From IMG/VR virus record IMGVR_UViG_3300032224_001146, positions 1 to 64,000 of that record: a stretch of 64,000 nucleotides of DNA; one strand, given 5' to 3'. A program made the position numbers and the translations under genes. Each line of letters begins with the position of its first letter. Positions within the stretch are counted from its first letter, which is position 1. Source of the stretch: a virus. The notes beneath the pieces were generated by a model. That model did not search any database. It was not told where the DNA came from and was given only the letters and a program-made list of their open reading frames with translations. Positions 1-3,714 of this stretch are shown in pieces.

Positions 1-6
1 ATAATT

Positions 7-288
7 TTATTCCTCATAGTATTCGTCATCTTGACACCATGCTTCTAAGTGGTGACTTTCAATAATTGCCCATGCAGGAGCATAAGTTTCACCACGCCAA
101 CTTACGCCTTCAGGTAATTCAATTTTGCGTTCTTGACTATCTTCCCAGTATGCATCAATAGCATCAATACATGGTTGCACCATTGAAAGTGGAACGGGTG
201 GATAATGATTAGAACGCAATTGTATTGCAATTGAACTTTCTAAATCTAAATTCATTGTAGCAAGATCAGTGGAGAGATTATTACCCAT
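7..288 (-). CDS. Small phage protein, unknown function (93 aa)
   Basis: This is an acidic, soluble 93-residue protein that I do not recognise functionally. It has no signal peptide, membrane segment or Cys cluster. The middle carries a Trp/Glu-rich stretch (AIDAYWEDSQER, then GVSWRGETYAPAW) that looks like a compact folded domain, and it ends in an acidic DDEYYEE tail. The ATG lies 2 bases after the stop of the upstream gene at 291-476, so it is the last gene in this window of the unit transcribed from the promoter near 1260. The unit probably continues past the left end. Coding status rests on operon packing and on protein-like composition. Confidence 0.7.
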   Translation of the reverse strand: MGNNLSTDLATMNLDLESSIAIQLRSNHYPPVPLSMVQPCIDAIDAYWEDSQERKIELPEGVSWRGETYAPAWAIIESHHLEAWCQDDEYYEE

Positions 289-290
289 TA

Positions 291-476
291 TTATTTACCT
301 ACCTTTGTGTTGTAATTAATTGCGTCATAGAATCGGGTGACATCGAAGTTAGAATTATCTTTGCCAAACATTACTGCAAACTCTCTCGCTAAGTATCCAT
401 ACACTGCGGGGTGAGTTTTATCCTGCACACTAGCAAGAATTTCAGCGGTTGAAATATAATCTTTACGGCTCATCAT
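291..476 (-). CDS. MSRKDY-family small phage protein (61 aa)
   Basis: A 61-residue protein beginning MMSRKDYISTAEILASV, with a C-terminal FAVMFGKDNSNFD segment. The same architecture, an N-terminal M(S/T)RKDY(I/V)xTAEIL and a C-terminal FAxMFxxDNxxFDxxxF, recurs in the gene at 2438-2617, so the two are diverged paralogs. Similar short (M)xRKDY proteins occur in many actinobacteriophages, always without assigned function (from memory). The ATG overlaps the TGA of the 473-688 gene (ATGA), indicating translational coupling. It may be a helical regulator or host-takeover protein, but nothing in the sequence proves this. Confidence 0.75.
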   Translation of the reverse strand: MMSRKDYISTAEILASVQDKTHPAVYGYLAREFAVMFGKDNSNFDVTRFYDAINYNTKVGK

Positions 477-688
477 TTTTCTACAACCTTTCTTCCTTCA
501 CGATAAAATATTTTGGTATAGCATTTACCTGACGGCGTGTAGAGATTAACAGTAGAATATTTATCTGCGAATCCCCAGTCAATAAACTTTGCAAACTCTT
601 TATGAGCCTGCAATTCATCTGAGTATTGGAAAGAATAATCAGGGGTTTTATTCTCATCATAGGTTACAGTAATTTTATAGTTAGTCAT
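473..688 (-). CDS. Small phage protein, unknown function (71 aa)
   Basis: A 71-residue basic, aromatic-rich protein of unknown function. The pattern YKITVTYDENKTPDYSFQYSD near the start and VNLYTPSGKCYTKIFYREG near the end suggests a small beta-rich fold around a central helix (ELQAHKEFAKFIDWGFA). There is no membrane segment. It overlaps the upstream gene by 8 bases and the downstream gene by 4 (ATGA), consistent with one coupled operon. Its other possible reading, a random frame, is unlikely given the tight packing on both sides. Confidence 0.7.
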   Translation of the reverse strand: MTNYKITVTYDENKTPDYSFQYSDELQAHKEFAKFIDWGFADKYSTVNLYTPSGKCYTKIFYREGRKVVEK

Positions 689-905
689 TATCTACACCTA
701 CCCACATTGTTGCCCAAAAATCTGAACCCCAAGTAGAAATTTTTTCAGGGTTGTAAGTAGGGCGAACCTTTATTTTATAGCAGAAAGAATTATCTTCATC
801 TAACTGAGAATAACGCTCTGCGTATTGGATAATTCCATCACGATTTTTTCTAGCGAGGGAACGGCTACGATAGTATTTGCCTTCTAAGGCTTGTGAGATT
901 AGCAT
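681..905 (-). CDS. Small phage protein, unknown function (74 aa)
   Basis: A 74-residue protein, basic at the N-terminus (KYYRSRSLARKNRDG) and rich in Trp near the C-terminus (WGSDFWATMWVGVDND). I do not recognise its family. The start codon overlaps the preceding stop as TAATG (position 905), the coupling signal used throughout this block. It is the first gene downstream of a promoter-like element at 942-964 that lies inside the 40-residue gene above it, so it may be made from two transcripts. Confidence 0.7.
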   Translation of the reverse strand: MLISQALEGKYYRSRSLARKNRDGIIQYAERYSQLDEDNSFCYKIKVRPTYNPEKISTWGSDFWATMWVGVDND

Positions 906-1027
906 TATTTGCTACCTTCTTTCTTTGTTGTGTTATTGGACATTGTAGCAGATAGGACTGACATCGCCTTTTCTGCATTAGCCTTGCGTGTCGCAAGGAC
1001 TAGGGCTTTATACTCATCTAATTTCAT
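905..1027 (-). CDS. Short helical phage protein (40 aa)
   Basis: A 40-residue ORF, MKLDEYKALVLATRKANAEKAM and so on, basic and probably mostly helical, ending in a Lys-rich tail. The start is chosen because GAAAGGTC, a reasonable Shine-Dalgarno sequence, lies just upstream, and because the stop overlaps the next start as TAATG. Function is unknown. Its coding sequence also contains a complete copy of the early promoter element (942-964) and a 7-bp inverted repeat with a 3-base loop (982-998). The DNA may therefore be regulatory as well as, or instead of, coding. Confidence 0.55.
   Translation of the reverse strand: MKLDEYKALVLATRKANAEKAMSVLSATMSNNTTKKEGSK
942..964 (-). promoter_or_regulatory. 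Internal early-type promoter
   Basis: On the minus strand an ATGTCAG block (958-964) is followed, at exactly the spacing seen in the four leader promoters of this block, by TACAAT (942-947) preceded by TGC, giving an extended -10. It would drive the gene at 681-905. It lacks the CRP-like palindrome of the other promoters but has CCTTGCG-TGT-CGCAAGG (982-998) upstream. Confidence 0.5.
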
Positions 1028-1042
1028 TATTAGACCTTTCTA

Positions 1043-1198
1043 CTAGAGGCAATTTATGCAATTGCAAGATTTAGAACGGATAAGGTAACGGAATAACTCT
1101 AAGCGAGTTTCCTTATCTAATCCATAAGAGGATTTTACTCCGCCGTTATGGAAATCATGAACGATAGTAGAGAATAGAGTTTCATTTAGTGTAGTCAT
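1043..1198 (-). CDS. Small phage protein with C-terminal CxC motif (51 aa)
   Basis: A 51-residue protein starting MTTLNETLFSTIVHDFHNGG and ending KSCNCINCL, a Cys-rich tail (CxCxxC) that could bind a metal. Function is unknown. It is the first gene after the promoter at 1251-1273. Its start follows GAAAGGTGG, a strong Shine-Dalgarno sequence, and the 5' leader carries a 7-bp triloop hairpin. Too short for standard gene callers, but its position as leader gene of an operon with a clear ribosome binding site supports it. Confidence 0.65.
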   Translation of the reverse strand: MTTLNETLFSTIVHDFHNGGVKSSYGLDKETRLELFRYLIRSKSCNCINCL

Positions 1199-1218
1199 TT
1201 GAGACCACCTTTCTTTTT

Positions 1219-1235
1219 AGCGAGAGTTTCTCGCT
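1219..1235 (-). promoter_or_regulatory. 5' leader hairpin of the operon ending at position 7
   Basis: A perfect 7-bp inverted repeat with a 3-base loop, AGCGAGA / TCTCGCT, lies near the expected 5' end of the mRNA, between the -10 box and the Shine-Dalgarno sequence. The same architecture with unrelated stem sequences occurs at 2182-2198 and 3595-3611. A role in mRNA stability or start-site exposure is inference. Confidence 0.6.
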
Positions 1236-1250
1236 TTCTTTATACCTGAA

Positions 1251-1273
1251 ATTATAGCAGGGGGGTCTGACAT
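1251..1273 (-). promoter_or_regulatory. Early promoter A
   Basis: Minus-strand TATAAT (1251-1256), preceded by TGC to give an extended -10, with ATGTCAG (1267-1273) at the outer end of a 17-base spacer. The ATGTCAG block and its spacing are shared with the promoters at 2215, 3318 and 3625. No consensus -35 is present, which suggests activation by a protein reading the conserved block or the palindrome 38 bp upstream. Confidence 0.75.
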
Positions 1274-1311
1274 CTACTGACCAGTAATGCCTCAAATCGG
1301 ACATTTTGTAT

Positions 1312-1327
1312 TGTGATTAAAATCACA
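1312..1327. promoter_or_regulatory. CRP/FNR-like palindromic operator A
   Basis: TGTGA-N6-TCACA, a perfect match to the classical CRP-type half-site arrangement, centred about 55 bp upstream of the -10 of promoter A. 38 bases separate it from the ATGTCAG block. Three related copies occur upstream of the other early promoters. Confidence 0.7.
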
Positions 1328-1377
1328 CGACCAATTCACGCTCAAAAATCCCATGTGTTTAACATCACACCCTTAAG

Positions 1378-1436
1378 CGACACGCCCGAGCCCGCTTCTT
1401 TTGCGGGCCAGCTTGATTTTGTCAAGCCGACACGCC
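1378..1436 (-). terminator. Paired-hairpin 3' element flanked by CGACACGCC
   Basis: Directly after the stop codon at 1438 the minus strand reads GGCGTGTCG, a 6-bp hairpin (1411-1416 with 1422-1427), a 6-bp GC-rich hairpin (1390-1395 with 1403-1408), then GGCGTGTCG again. No U-run follows, so it is not a textbook intrinsic terminator. A similar element follows the operon that ends at 2380. Its position fits transcription termination or 3'-end protection. Confidence 0.5.
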
Positions 1437-1437
1437 G

Positions 1438-1602
1438 TTACATTCCTAAAATATATTCCATCGGATCTTCATCGGCGGGAATGCAAGAACAGGTTTCAAC
1501 ATCAAAATTATTATCATTACCAAAGAAAATAAATCCTGCACCATTGCATTCATCACATTCAATTCCAATAACATTTTTTAATTCATCTAAAATGTTTCCC
1601 AT
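1438..1602 (-). CDS. Small Cys-cluster (zinc-finger-like) protein (54 aa)
   Basis: A 54-residue acidic protein with CDECNGAGF at residues ~16-24 and CSC near residue 40. The CxxCxGxG-like element resembles the zinc knuckles of DnaJ-type proteins, so metal binding is likely. Partner and role are unknown. The start codon is preceded by AGGAGA within the end of the upstream gene, a good ribosome binding site. It is the last gene of the unit driven by promoter B and is followed at once by the paired-hairpin element. It was found by reading the minus strand, being below the usual length cutoff. Confidence 0.7.
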   Translation of the reverse strand: MGNILDELKNVIGIECDECNGAGFIFFGNDNNFDVETCSCIPADEDPMEYILGM

Positions 1603-1605
1603 TTT

Positions 1606-1806
1606 TTATTCTCCTGTCTTTACTGCTAAATAGCGGTAAGTATTTTTTCCAAAATTGCGTGGAGAGATTTCCACTAGATAAGTATCTGATTCAGAATACC
1701 AGACATCATTATTTTTTTCGGCTGAAATAATTTCACCCGTTACAGAACCAGAATAATAAGTTTTTCCCACTAGGAGACTTTCTACTGTATAAGTATTAGC
1801 CGACAT
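1606..1806 (-). CDS. Small beta-rich phage protein (66 aa)
   Basis: A 66-residue protein of unknown function. The sequence VGKTYYSGSVTGEIISAE followed by WYSESDTYLVEI and NTYRYLAVKTG reads as a small SH3-like or other all-beta domain, but I cannot name the family. It is coupled to the upstream gene by TAATG at 1806 and lies 3 bases before the next gene. No membrane or secretion signal is seen. Confidence 0.7.
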   Translation of the reverse strand: MSANTYTVESLLVGKTYYSGSVTGEIISAEKNNDVWYSESDTYLVEISPRNFGKNTYRYLAVKTGE

Positions 1807-1949
1807 TAGTTAGCCTCCTTAGTAGTAAATAAAGCACCTTCTTGAAATAAACCAATTTCAAGGTCTAGCATTTCATTTGGAGTGGCTTCGGATAAATCTA
1901 CCCAACCAGCACCATTTTCATTCATTCTAAAAATTTCAATGTAACCCAT
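1806..1949 (-). CDS. Small acidic phage protein (47 aa)
   Basis: A 47-residue ORF, MGYIEIFRMNENGAGWVDL onwards, acidic and probably globular, function unknown. Its stop overlaps the next start as TAATG and its start lies 5 bases after the stop of the 1955-2164 gene, so it sits in a fully packed four-gene operon. The ribosome binding site upstream is weak (GGGAGT-like, in the end of the preceding gene), consistent with translation by coupling. Confidence 0.65.
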   Translation of the reverse strand: MGYIEIFRMNENGAGWVDLSEATPNEMLDLEIGLFQEGALFTTKEAN

Positions 1950-1954
1950 TATGA

Positions 1955-2164
1955 TTACTCCCAACTTCTAGTAGTAGCAATTACTACACGCTTACTAGGC
2001 ACATAGTTTTCTAATTCAACTAAATTAGTTTCAAGGATAATTCCACCTTTAGCAACTAAGTAGTCAAGATGCGAATTAGCATCTAATTCTGTGTTACAGA
2101 GAACACCTAAGCAAGTTCCGAATTCTTTTTCGGAGTATTGAACTTTATACGATAATTTGAACAT
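1955..2164 (-). CDS. Small phage protein, unknown function (69 aa)
   Basis: First gene of the promoter B operon. The 69-residue product starts MFKLSYKVQYSEKEFG and has an alternating beta pattern followed by a helix (TELDANSHLDYLVAKGG) and a final strand (RVVIATTRSWE), a small alpha/beta fold reminiscent of ferredoxin-like mini-domains. The family is not recognised. AGAAAGGAACTTAA just upstream supplies a ribosome binding site, and a 7-bp triloop hairpin precedes it in the leader. Confidence 0.75.
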   Translation of the reverse strand: MFKLSYKVQYSEKEFGTCLGVLCNTELDANSHLDYLVAKGGIILETNLVELENYVPSKRVVIATTRSWE

Positions 2165-2181
2165 TTAAGTTCCTTTCTAGT

Positions 2182-2198
2182 TTGAGAACCTTTCTCAA
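2182..2198 (-). promoter_or_regulatory. 5' leader hairpin of the promoter B operon
   Basis: TTGAGAA-N3-TTCTCAA, a perfect 7-bp stem with a 3-base loop near the predicted 5' end of the transcript. Its stem sequence differs from those at 1219 and 3595, but geometry and position are the same. Confidence 0.6.
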
Positions 2199-2214
2199 CT
2201 TTCTTTATACTAGA

Positions 2215-2237
2215 AGTATAACAGAGACCACTGACAT
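2215..2237 (-). promoter_or_regulatory. Early promoter B
   Basis: Minus-strand TATACT (2215-2220) preceded by TGT (extended -10), with the ATGTCAG block at 2231-2237 closing the 17-base spacer. It drives the four genes from 2164 down to 1438. Confidence 0.75.
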
Positions 2238-2274
2238 TTTGACCCGTTTTTCGGGCGTGTCGGAAATCTTTTTT

Positions 2275-2290
2275 TGTGATTTACGCCACA
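2275..2290. promoter_or_regulatory. CRP/FNR-like operator B
   Basis: TGTGATTTACGCCACA, matching TGTGA-N6-TCACA except for one base in the right half-site. It is 37 bases from the ATGTCAG block of promoter B and identical to the copy at 3675-3690. Confidence 0.65.
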
Positions 2291-2329
2291 TCCAGGGAAT
2301 TAGATAAATTCGGACATAAGAGACAAATC

Positions 2330-2377
2330 GCCCGCAAAAGATACGGGCAGCATCGCCTTTTGTCAAGGCGACACGCC
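2330..2377 (-). terminator. Paired-hairpin 3' element, second copy
   Basis: Downstream of the last ORF of the promoter C operon the minus strand reads GGCGTGTCG (2369-2377), a hairpin (2354-2359 with 2365-2370) and a GC-rich hairpin (2330-2334 with 2344-2348). The first 20 bases are clearly related to those at 1417-1436, including CTTGACAAAA. It is likely a 3'-end element; no U-run is present. Confidence 0.5.
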
Positions 2378-2379
2378 GT

Positions 2380-2451
2380 TTATTCTAAAATATCTTTTAA
2401 AAGCTTTTCGATGTCTTCTAAAATTTCTTCTAGATCTTTATCGGTCCCCAT
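2380..2451 (-). CDS. Possible 23-residue helical microprotein
   Basis: A tiny ORF, MGTDKDLEEILEDIEKLLKD plus three residues, that overlaps the end of the 2438-2617 gene by 14 bases and ends where the paired-hairpin element begins. The heptad-like Leu/Ile spacing predicts an amphipathic acidic helix. GAGAGGCC upstream could serve as ribosome binding site. It is too short to be certain and could be untranslated 3' sequence. Confidence 0.3.
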   Translation of the reverse strand: MGTDKDLEEILEDIEKLLKDILE

Positions 2452-2617
2452 TTAGGCAGGCCTCTCTAAACTTTTCGAAATCAAATCTTTCGTTATCTGC
2501 AGAGAACATGCTAGCAAATTCATCCACGAGGTCTTCAAATAAAAATTCGTCAGCTATGAGGTCCCTATACGAAGAAAGAATCTCAGCGGTGTTAACGTAG
2601 TCTTTACGTGTCATCAT
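2438..2617 (-). CDS. MTRKDY-family small phage protein (59 aa)
   Basis: A 59-residue protein, MMTRKDYVNTAEILSSY at the N-terminus and FASMFSADNERFDFEKF near the C-terminus. It is a paralog of the protein at 291-476, with the same conserved ends and a different middle. The second half resembles a short helical domain. It starts by TAATG overlap with the upstream membrane peptide gene. Function is unknown; recurrence in two separately controlled operons of one phage suggests related but non-identical targets or timing. Confidence 0.7.
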   Translation of the reverse strand: MMTRKDYVNTAEILSSYRDLIADEFLFEDLVDEFASMFSADNERFDFEKFREACLNGDR

Positions 2618-2727
2618 TAGTTAAGTCCGCCATTCTTTAGGTCTTTTATCATGAGCACTACTAGTGGGACGGTTACCCCTACTAGGGCCAATTGTACTAG
2701 GCTAGTTAGTATACGGTTAACAGTCAT
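2617..2727 (-). CDS. Single-span membrane microprotein (36 aa)
   Basis: A 36-residue product whose central part (LTSLVQLALVGVTVPLVVLMI, residues ~7-27) is a clear transmembrane helix, followed by a short basic tail (KDLKNGG). It is too small for a classical holin but could be a membrane-disturbing or superinfection-exclusion peptide. It is coupled on both sides by TAATG. The translation is unambiguous but expression is inferred only from operon position. Confidence 0.6.
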   Translation of the reverse strand: MTVNRILTSLVQLALVGVTVPLVVLMIKDLKNGGLN

Positions 2728-2819
2728 TATTCACACTCTCCACAATAACACTTGCCCAATTCTTTATTATTGCATTCCTCTTTAGTTAGGGAAGGCTCCC
2801 ATTTATTCATTGTATCCAT
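2727..2819 (-). CDS. Cys-rich microprotein (30 aa)
   Basis: A 30-residue ORF ending GKCYCGECE, with an earlier Cys (EECNNKE), so four Cys residues in half the chain could form a metal site. It is coupled to the downstream membrane peptide by TAATG and starts at 2819, one base before the stop of the upstream gene. Function is unknown. Similar short Cys-rich proteins recur in this window (1043, 1438, 4453). Confidence 0.5.
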   Translation of the reverse strand: MDTMNKWEPSLTKEECNNKELGKCYCGECE

Positions 2820-2972
2820 TTACTTACGCTTCTTTCTCTTGCGTAGTACTAATACGGCTACTACTAGGGCGGTTACGATAAATGTACGCCATGGTAGATA
2901 GACATCTCCCATGTATGAGGTAAAGTCCATGCCCCAATTAGTAAACTGTATGTGTAATAGATTAAGTTCCAT
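2820..2972 (-). CDS. Single-span membrane protein with basic tail (50 aa)
   Basis: A 50-residue product with an N-terminal amphipathic part, a transmembrane helix (WRTFIVTALVVAVLVL, residues ~28-43) and a very basic C-terminus (RKRKKRK). One membrane span followed by a positively charged tail is seen in phage accessory holins and in inner-membrane effector peptides, but its place in an early-type operon argues against a simple lysis role. It lies between the 2993-3202 gene and the Cys-rich microprotein. Confidence 0.6.
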   Translation of the reverse strand: MELNLLHIQFTNWGMDFTSYMGDVYLPWRTFIVTALVVAVLVLRKRKKRK

Positions 2973-2992
2973 TTTATTTATTTCCTATTCTT

Positions 2993-3202
2993 TTAGTTGT
3001 TAAACATTGCTAGTAGTTCATCCACTTGCTTATCGCTTAAGTGGTCTATTTGTATTGCGTTAGCAAAACCGAAGATGTCCTCTTCTGTAGGGTCTACCTC
3101 TACCTCTTCATCTAGGTAGATGTATGCGTCAGCGATGTCTGACTGTATAGTCTCCCACTTATTAGCAGGGCGGTTATTGAAAGAGTTGTATGTGTATGAC
3201 AT
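2993..3202 (-). CDS. Acidic small phage protein (69 aa)
   Basis: The first gene of the promoter C operon encodes a 69-residue, strongly acidic protein with a helical C-terminal half (EEDIFGFANAIQIDHLSDKQVDELLAMF, given here as two segments about residues 40-67). The final part resembles a helix-turn-helix-sized bundle without DNA-binding charge. Function is unknown; acidic early phage proteins are often inhibitors of nucleic-acid-binding host proteins, which is only a possibility here. AAAAGGAAATTAATTCA precedes the ATG. Confidence 0.7.
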   Translation of the reverse strand: MSYTYNSFNNRPANKWETIQSDIADAYIYLDEEVEVDPTEEDIFGFANAIQIDHLSDKQVDELLAMFNN

Positions 3203-3236
3203 TGAATTAATTTCCTTTTCTTTTAGTTAATTGTTG

Positions 3237-3289
3237 AGAGTTTTATTTGCTAGGCTCACCTTTCGGATTATTTGCTAGGCTCAAACTCT
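3237..3289 (-). promoter_or_regulatory. Long structured 5' leader with a 14-base direct repeat
   Basis: The leader of the promoter C transcript contains two copies of the 14-mer ATTTGCTAGGCTCA (3245-3258 and 3270-3283, plus-strand reading), bracketed by a 7-bp inverted repeat (AGAGTTT at 3237-3243, AAACTCT at 3283-3289). It replaces the compact triloop hairpin of the other three leaders. The repeat could be a binding site for a regulatory protein or RNA. Confidence 0.5.
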
Positions 3290-3317
3290 TTTATTCTTAT
3301 TTAATTGTTATAGTAGA

Positions 3318-3340
3318 ATACTACCATAGGGGTCTGACAT
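3318..3340 (-). promoter_or_regulatory. Early promoter C
   Basis: Minus-strand TAGTAT (3318-3323) preceded by TGG, with the ATGTCAG block at 3334-3340 and the same 17-base spacer as the other early promoters. Just upstream is a GC-rich dyad (CCCCCTAAAATGGGGG on the minus strand). It drives the genes from 3202 down to 2380. Confidence 0.7.
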
Positions 3341-3367
3341 TTACCCCCATTTTAGGGGGTGTGTTTA

Positions 3368-3383
3368 TGTGATTTATCTCACA
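3368..3383. promoter_or_regulatory. CRP/FNR-like operator C
   Basis: TGTGATTTATCTCACA, a perfect TGTGA-N6-TCACA site, 27 bases from the ATGTCAG block of promoter C. It overlaps the last codons and the stop of the 3374-3577 gene. Confidence 0.7.
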
Positions 3384-3577
3384 CGATTAGCGAAGACCCA
3401 CTTACTCTCATTAGGAGAGAGGTAGCGGTGAGAGACAAGACCCTCTGAGGCTACCATAGCAACATACGCCATACGGCTAATGTAGTTACCATTAGCAAGG
3501 CGGAACACATTATTATCCTTAGTGTTAGAGGATGACATAGAGTGATTTGGCTCTACTACTACTGTTAGTGAATTCAT
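3374..3577 (-). CDS. Small phage protein, unknown function (67 aa)
   Basis: A 67-residue protein, the only gene between promoters D and C and so a single-gene unit nearest the strand switch. The segment NVFRLANGNYISRMAYVAMVASEGLVSHRYLSPNES has the look of a small domain with a basic surface (isolated Arg and His residues), compatible with nucleic-acid binding but not diagnostic. AAAGAAAGGAATTCACA upstream supplies the ribosome binding site. As the first gene of the block it would be a reasonable candidate for an early regulator; this is inference from position. Confidence 0.7.
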   Translation of the reverse strand: MNSLTVVVEPNHSMSSSNTKDNNVFRLANGNYISRMAYVAMVASEGLVSHRYLSPNESKWVFANRVR

Positions 3578-3594
3578 TGTGAATTCCTTTCTTT

Positions 3595-3611
3595 ATTGAC
3601 ACCTTGTCAAT
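3595..3611 (-). promoter_or_regulatory. 5' leader hairpin of the 3374-3577 gene
   Basis: ATTGACA-N3-TGTCAAT, a perfect 7-bp stem with a 3-base loop between the -10 of promoter D and the ribosome binding site. It is the third example of this leader design. Confidence 0.6.
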
Positions 3612-3624
3612 TTCTTATAGTGTA

Positions 3625-3647
3625 ACTATAACACACCCCACTGACAT
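3625..3647 (-). promoter_or_regulatory. Early promoter D
   Basis: Minus-strand TATAGT (3625-3630) preceded by TGT, with ATGTCAG at 3641-3647. Here the base run before the block (TTGAAA) could also act as a -35. The dyad TTTCAACTTGAAA lies directly upstream. Confidence 0.75.
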
Positions 3648-3674
3648 TTTCAAGTTGAAACACGGCGTGTCGCA

Positions 3675-3690
3675 TGTGATTTACGCCACA
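3675..3690. promoter_or_regulatory. CRP/FNR-like operator D
   Basis: TGTGATTTACGCCACA, identical to operator B. It is 27 bases from the ATGTCAG block, as in unit C. Confidence 0.65.
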
Positions 3691-3714
3691 TTTATTTATG
3701 GTCGCACTATCTAT

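Follow-up and report, generated by a model that had tools for sequence, protein, structure and literature searches.

We studied CRP-type palindromes, and the promoters that accompany them, in the leftmost 64 kb (hereafter, the window) of a virus record of 87,193 bases (IMGVR_UViG_3300032224_001146). The minus strand bears small leftward open reading frames (ORFs), and there are four exact palindromes of the form TGTGA-N6-YCACA, all of them upstream of a TGTCAG-N10-TANNNT sequence on that strand. The palindrome of the first promoter, P1 (1312–1327, minus strand; TGTGATTTTAATCACA on the promoter strand; centre approximately −75.5 from the predicted start), lies 39 bases upstream of the TGTCAG of its core, TGTCAG-N10-TATAAT (1251–1272, minus strand; TGTCAG at 1267–1272, −10 at 1251–1256; predicted start ~1244). 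The other three, also on the minus strand, are arranged similarly: P2 has TGTGGCGTAAATCACA at 2275–2290 with a gap of 38 to TGTCAG-N10-TATACT (2215–2236; TGTCAG at 2231–2236; predicted start ~2208); P3 has TGTGAGATAAATCACA at 3368–3383, overlapping the 3′ end of an ORF (3374–3577, minus strand), with a gap of 28 to TGTCAG-N10-TAGTAT (3318–3339; TGTCAG at 3334–3339; predicted start ~3311); and P4 again has TGTGGCGTAAATCACA, at 3675–3690, with a gap of 28 to a core (3625–3653) that comprises a TTGAAA −35 (3648–3653), TGTCAG (3641–3646) and a TATAGT −10 (3625–3630; predicted start ~3618). A fifth promoter, P0 (942–963, minus strand; TGTCAG-N10-TACAAT with TGTCAG at 958–963), is located inside the P1 unit and has no palindrome. 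We also noticed a single one-mismatch palindrome (1354–1369, minus strand; TGTGATGTTAAACACA on the promoter strand), in phase and 81 bases upstream of the P1 TGTCAG, which is a possible second P1 site.

The four palindromes stand exactly where an earlier note on this DNA had placed them and are far more frequent than expected by chance (6 strand-matches per 64 kb; shuffled sequences: 0.21 ± 0.56, none of which reached 6). The gaps that the note gave to the CTGACAT/ATGTCAG block were likewise recovered (38, 37, 27 and 27; chance 0.00); counted to TGTCAG, they are 39, 38, 28 and 28. These shuffle counts and gap statistics, together with the spacer specificity found in relatives, led us to reject a chance occurrence of the motif. 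The claim that a palindrome precedes every early promoter holds for four of the five TGTCAG promoters, since the P0 core has none, and the "two helical phases" proposed there are better described as two distances in a single phase; relatives display at least six distances. Scanning the rest of the 87,193-base contig revealed no further exact palindrome.

We obtained 80 related loci from IMG/VR via ribonucleotide reductase (RNR), that is, without selection by promoter pattern, and pattern scans of IMG/VR for a palindrome plus core produced at least 119 and at least 120 stretches, which together with the RNR loci yielded at least 557 distinct promoters. In the 80 RNR loci we counted 78 distinct TGTGA-N6-TCACA palindromes versus 0–4 at any other spacer length. 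Among the at least 557 promoters (TGTCAG-N10-TANNNT core), the gap from palindrome to TGTCAG peaked sharply at 18, 28, 38, 48–49, 59 and 70, and the main peaks were the same in the RNR-selected loci as in the pattern-scan set. The spacing classes of relatives thus form a comb with a helical period of ~10.35 bp (Rayleigh R: 0.71 at 10.25–10.4 over 138 sequence clusters; null maximum: 0.31), and the strictest clustering, which left 37 units, gave an R of 0.63 versus a null maximum of 0.53. An in-phase site was present in 470 of 557 promoters among the matches listed, when one third of gaps would be expected by chance. In relatives, the palindromes lay almost exclusively upstream (only 1 downstream of 169 promoters). 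Near-identical orthologous cores in different phages had gaps of 28 and 38, 38 and 48, or 37 and 18; because orthologous cores use different in-phase gaps and the signal survives strict clustering, it is unlikely that the phasing merely reflects common descent. In 11 relatives of 98–116 kb and in G000, the listed exact palindromes (2–8 per genome) fall among the TGTCAG promoters (5–20 per genome), and the reversed control pattern of the palindrome was found 0 times in all 12 genomes.

The constant part of these promoters is the core: in relatives, TANNNT follows TGTCRG after exactly ten bases in 84 of the 103 boxes downstream of palindromes, and TGTC(A/G)G at a fixed N10 from the −10 is found across the group in promoters with or without CRP sites. 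We know of no described promoter element at the −28 to −23 position that TGTCAG occupies. As predicted beforehand, palindrome-bearing promoters had poorer −10 boxes than those without a site (4.77 versus 5.12 matches; p = 8e-4). A separate TGTCCG box (window 1298–1304) recurs in relatives 23 or 32–33 bases upstream of TGTCAG, often right after the palindrome.

The DNA (GC content: 36.5%) belongs to a phage whose terminase is nearest to that of Streptomyces phage Gilson, a member of the Stanwilliamsviridae (63.6% identical), and whose RNR is closest to those of Streptomyces phages (66%). The order of genes at the left end, with leftward small genes, a glycosyltransferase and RNR, is common to the contig and Gilson. 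WhiB genes, which are said to be restricted to actinobacteria and have been suggested as a mark of actinophages (PMC10202952), were present in 15 of 21 records, all 15 being among the 20 relatives, and absent from the contig itself, which is incomplete. We therefore place the phage among Stanwilliamsviridae-like actinophages, and the Streptomyces-phage-like terminase and RNR, the gene order and the WhiB genes of relatives point to an actinobacterium as the probable host. Although Gilson resembles the contig in these respects, it differs in having no phased TGTGA-N6-TCACA/TGTCAG architecture, and we rejected the architecture as a feature of the wider family. A search of genome contigs for a host through RNR returned five matches in metagenome-assembled genomes (MAGs), labelled cyanobacterium, Maricaulis, Rhodobiaceae, Euryarchaeota and Nomurabacteria, with no actinobacterial label among them; one of these contigs (L087), with an 80%-identical RNR in a MAG labelled uncultured cyanobacterium, is probably a misbinned phage.

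The site logo in relatives is TGTGA-(T/G)NTANM-TCACA. With its strict N6, this corresponds to the TGTGA-N6-TCACA consensus of Corynebacterium GlxR (PMC7999487); the CRP motif of M. tuberculosis also resembles that of E. coli CRP (PMC4117774). No CRP-family gene (HTH or cNMP domain) was found in the incomplete contig, and a scan of 20 relatives detected no CRP HTH over the cut-off, which agrees with the earlier remark that the window does not encode the regulator; for the contig and these relatives, we thus reject a CRP-family regulator of the phage's own. Since no such gene was found, the regulator is probably supplied by the host, and the palindromes are predicted to be binding sites of host CRP/GlxR.

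In the mechanism we propose, a host CRP/GlxR dimer would bind the palindrome upstream of a SigA-type promoter, which has a weak −35, TGTCAG at approximately −28 to −23 and often a TG before the TANNNT −10. The bound protein would then help host RNA polymerase to start at the head promoters of the leftward, presumably early, gene units in a class I manner, and could do so from any of at least six distances provided that the site stays on the same helix face. Class I-like activation is proposed because upstream placement, a single helical face and many distances are marks of class I, and we consider it likely, judging from the arrangement of the sites, that host actinobacterial CRP/GlxR activates the phage promoters in this way. 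The comb, the upstream placement and the N6 spacer are best read as the earlier note suggested, with a CRP-family protein occupying one side of the helix ahead of the promoters; that the protein activates rather than represses, and that cAMP or the metabolic state of the host is its input, is what we infer.

If the start is assumed to lie 7 bases after the −10, the palindromes are centred at approximately −54.5, −64.5, −74.5, −85, −95.5 and −106.5. They are upstream and clear of the −35 and, with minor exceptions at 33–34, keep to one side of the helix with a period of ~10.35 bp, in the manner of class I activation in E. coli, where the periodicity is ~10.5 bp (PMC6301791, PMC10882989). The E. 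coli optima are centred at −61.5, −71.5 and −82.5, with −64.5 giving 5.8-fold activation versus 763-fold at −61.5 (PMC6301791); the sites here, at approximately −64.5, −74.5 and −85, are not at these positions. CRP sites of M. tuberculosis include −55.5, −62.5, −95.5 and −106.5 (PMC4117774), and because of these it is possible that the actinobacterial geometry differs from that of E. coli; alternatively, a TGTCAG-bound factor may set the phase. In a loose control, a palindrome before a perfect TTGACA-N17-TATAAT was found in only 28 IMG/VR stretches (L280–L306), with gaps, not corrected for relatedness, near 7–10, 16–19 and 26–29 (the E. coli-like phase) and six at 22 or 32. These stretches may represent other phages or elements that use CRP.

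Several observations weigh against class I-like activation by host CRP/GlxR. The phase that most sites adopt is displaced by ~3 bp from the class I optimum of E. coli, in which a site at −64.5 is weak. A minor gap class at 33–34, seen in 8 of 138 clusters, is out of phase by half a turn, and gaps of 33 and 37 both occur within one orthologous family; some of the 33–34 promoters have a second, in-phase site at 59, whereas one family with 33 alone does not. Approximately 18 of the 121 palindromes in the RNR loci have no TGTCRG promoter downstream. Finally, a −35 TTG is commoner in promoters with a site (41% versus 18% without), which is opposite to the simplest expectation of activator dependence, and our prediction that site-bearing promoters lack a −35 thus failed. 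The minor classes at 33–34 and 45–46, both half a turn off, have centres at −69.5/−70.5 and −81.5/−82.5, respectively, near the E. coli class I phase.

We regard it as unlikely that host CRP/GlxR binds the sites and represses, delays or acts in both directions, with a fall in cAMP switching the genes on. GlxR-type proteins do act in both directions, and in coliphage T1 the pir, dam and recE promoters are repressed by cAMP-CRP of the host (PMC6737242); however, the sites are centred at or beyond approximately −54 and phased with the promoter, with that single palindrome downstream, and in M. tuberculosis activation is associated with CRP sites located upstream, repression with those near the start (PMC4117774). 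A regulator encoded by the phage and outside the CRP family, perhaps carried in the virion, might instead recognise TGTGA-N6-TCACA, since the sites are confined to an early-type block and the genomes are rich in small genes without known function. This appears improbable, as the half-sites and the N6 spacing are those of CRP/GlxR and immediate-early promoters need a factor that is already in the host; to our knowledge, no phage factor of such kind has been described. About equally improbable is a mainly architectural role, in which the palindromes cooperate with a TGTCAG-bound factor and are phased to it, without contacting RNA polymerase. Both the ~3 bp offset from the E. coli phase and the presence of TGTCAG in all these promoters at a fixed distance from the −10 fit such a role, and because that distance is fixed, phasing to a TGTCAG factor and phasing to polymerase look the same; TGTCAG is, however, also found without palindromes, in P0 and in many other promoters. 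Even though actinobacteria possess more than one kind of CRP-family protein, a paralogue other than cAMP-binding CRP, for example a redox-sensing one, is very unlikely, and the FNR type entertained by the earlier note is rejected, because the conserved GTGA half-site (logo TGTGA/TCACA) is that of CRP and an FNR site would read TTGAT-N4-ATCAA.

Two of the four sites are accompanied by double hairpins of the same design on the minus strand. The first (1372–1442; −29.1 kcal/mol, z −2.8) separates the P1 CRP site from the leftward unit before it and is probably a terminator or insulator, and the second (2318–2380; −28.9 kcal/mol, z −4.4) lies upstream of the P2 CRP site. They lack a U-run and contain the motifs GGCGTGTCG and GCTTGACAA, and the same element occurs in many relatives; an Rfam scan of the left 6.5 kb identified no known RNA element. 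Of the promoterless palindromes in the RNR loci, examples of which are L042:3148, L049:5172 and L066:1023, many sit directly upstream of this hairpin element. The promoter block of relatives spans ~10 kb and includes as many as about 17 promoters of this type, and the window (1–3700) has 5; for this reason, the window probably covers just one end of the block, with the contig beginning inside it and lacking part of the genome.

The usual view is that phages begin with promoters that are strong and factor-independent. In this large group of uncultivated actinophages, by contrast, a global regulator of the host seems to be needed by, or to influence, most head promoters of one block, and if this is true, infection would be linked to the nutrition and metabolic state of the host. 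A broader proposal, which we put forward only tentatively and with some doubt, is that widespread actinophages have wired most of an early regulon to host cAMP-CRP/GlxR so that infection tracks the carbon and energy state of the host, using new composite promoters (CRP site, TGTCAG spacer element and −10) with a CRP-polymerase geometry that departs by ~3 bp from the E. coli one. With their six or more spacings, these hundreds of natural promoters also provide a data set on actinobacterial CRP-polymerase geometry that is testable with GlxR or mycobacterial CRP.

Among known systems, the middle promoters of T4 have a phage-specific element, the Mot box, at approximately −30 with a good −10. TGTCAG resembles the Mot box in pairing an element near −30 with a −10, but differs in sequence and position; no MotA or AsiA homologue came to light, though none was looked for. 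Class I CRP promoters of E. coli such as lac and malT likewise carry TGTGA-N6-TCACA ahead of a weak SigA/sigma70-type promoter, at several distances that are one helical turn apart, whereas the promoters described here have centres ~3 bp off, TGTCAG in the spacer region, at least six distances and a phage context. The regulons of Corynebacterium GlxR and M. tuberculosis CRP are alike in the consensus (PMC7999487) and in the range of positions (CRP-Mt sites from −55.5 to −106.5; PMC4117774), but comprise chromosomal genes rather than phage promoters. In coliphage T1, host cAMP-CRP likewise regulates phage promoters directly (PMC6737242), but by repression in the lysogen, in contrast to sites that are upstream, phased and at most head promoters of a block. 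Thus, class I CRP activation and the action of host CRP on phage promoters (T1 repression) are already known; in the open-licence papers that we searched, T1 was the nearest case and none described CRP sites phased with phage promoters. What appears to be new is that a large group of predicted actinophages uses a host CRP-type site systematically and in phase, at the majority of the head promoters of a gene block.

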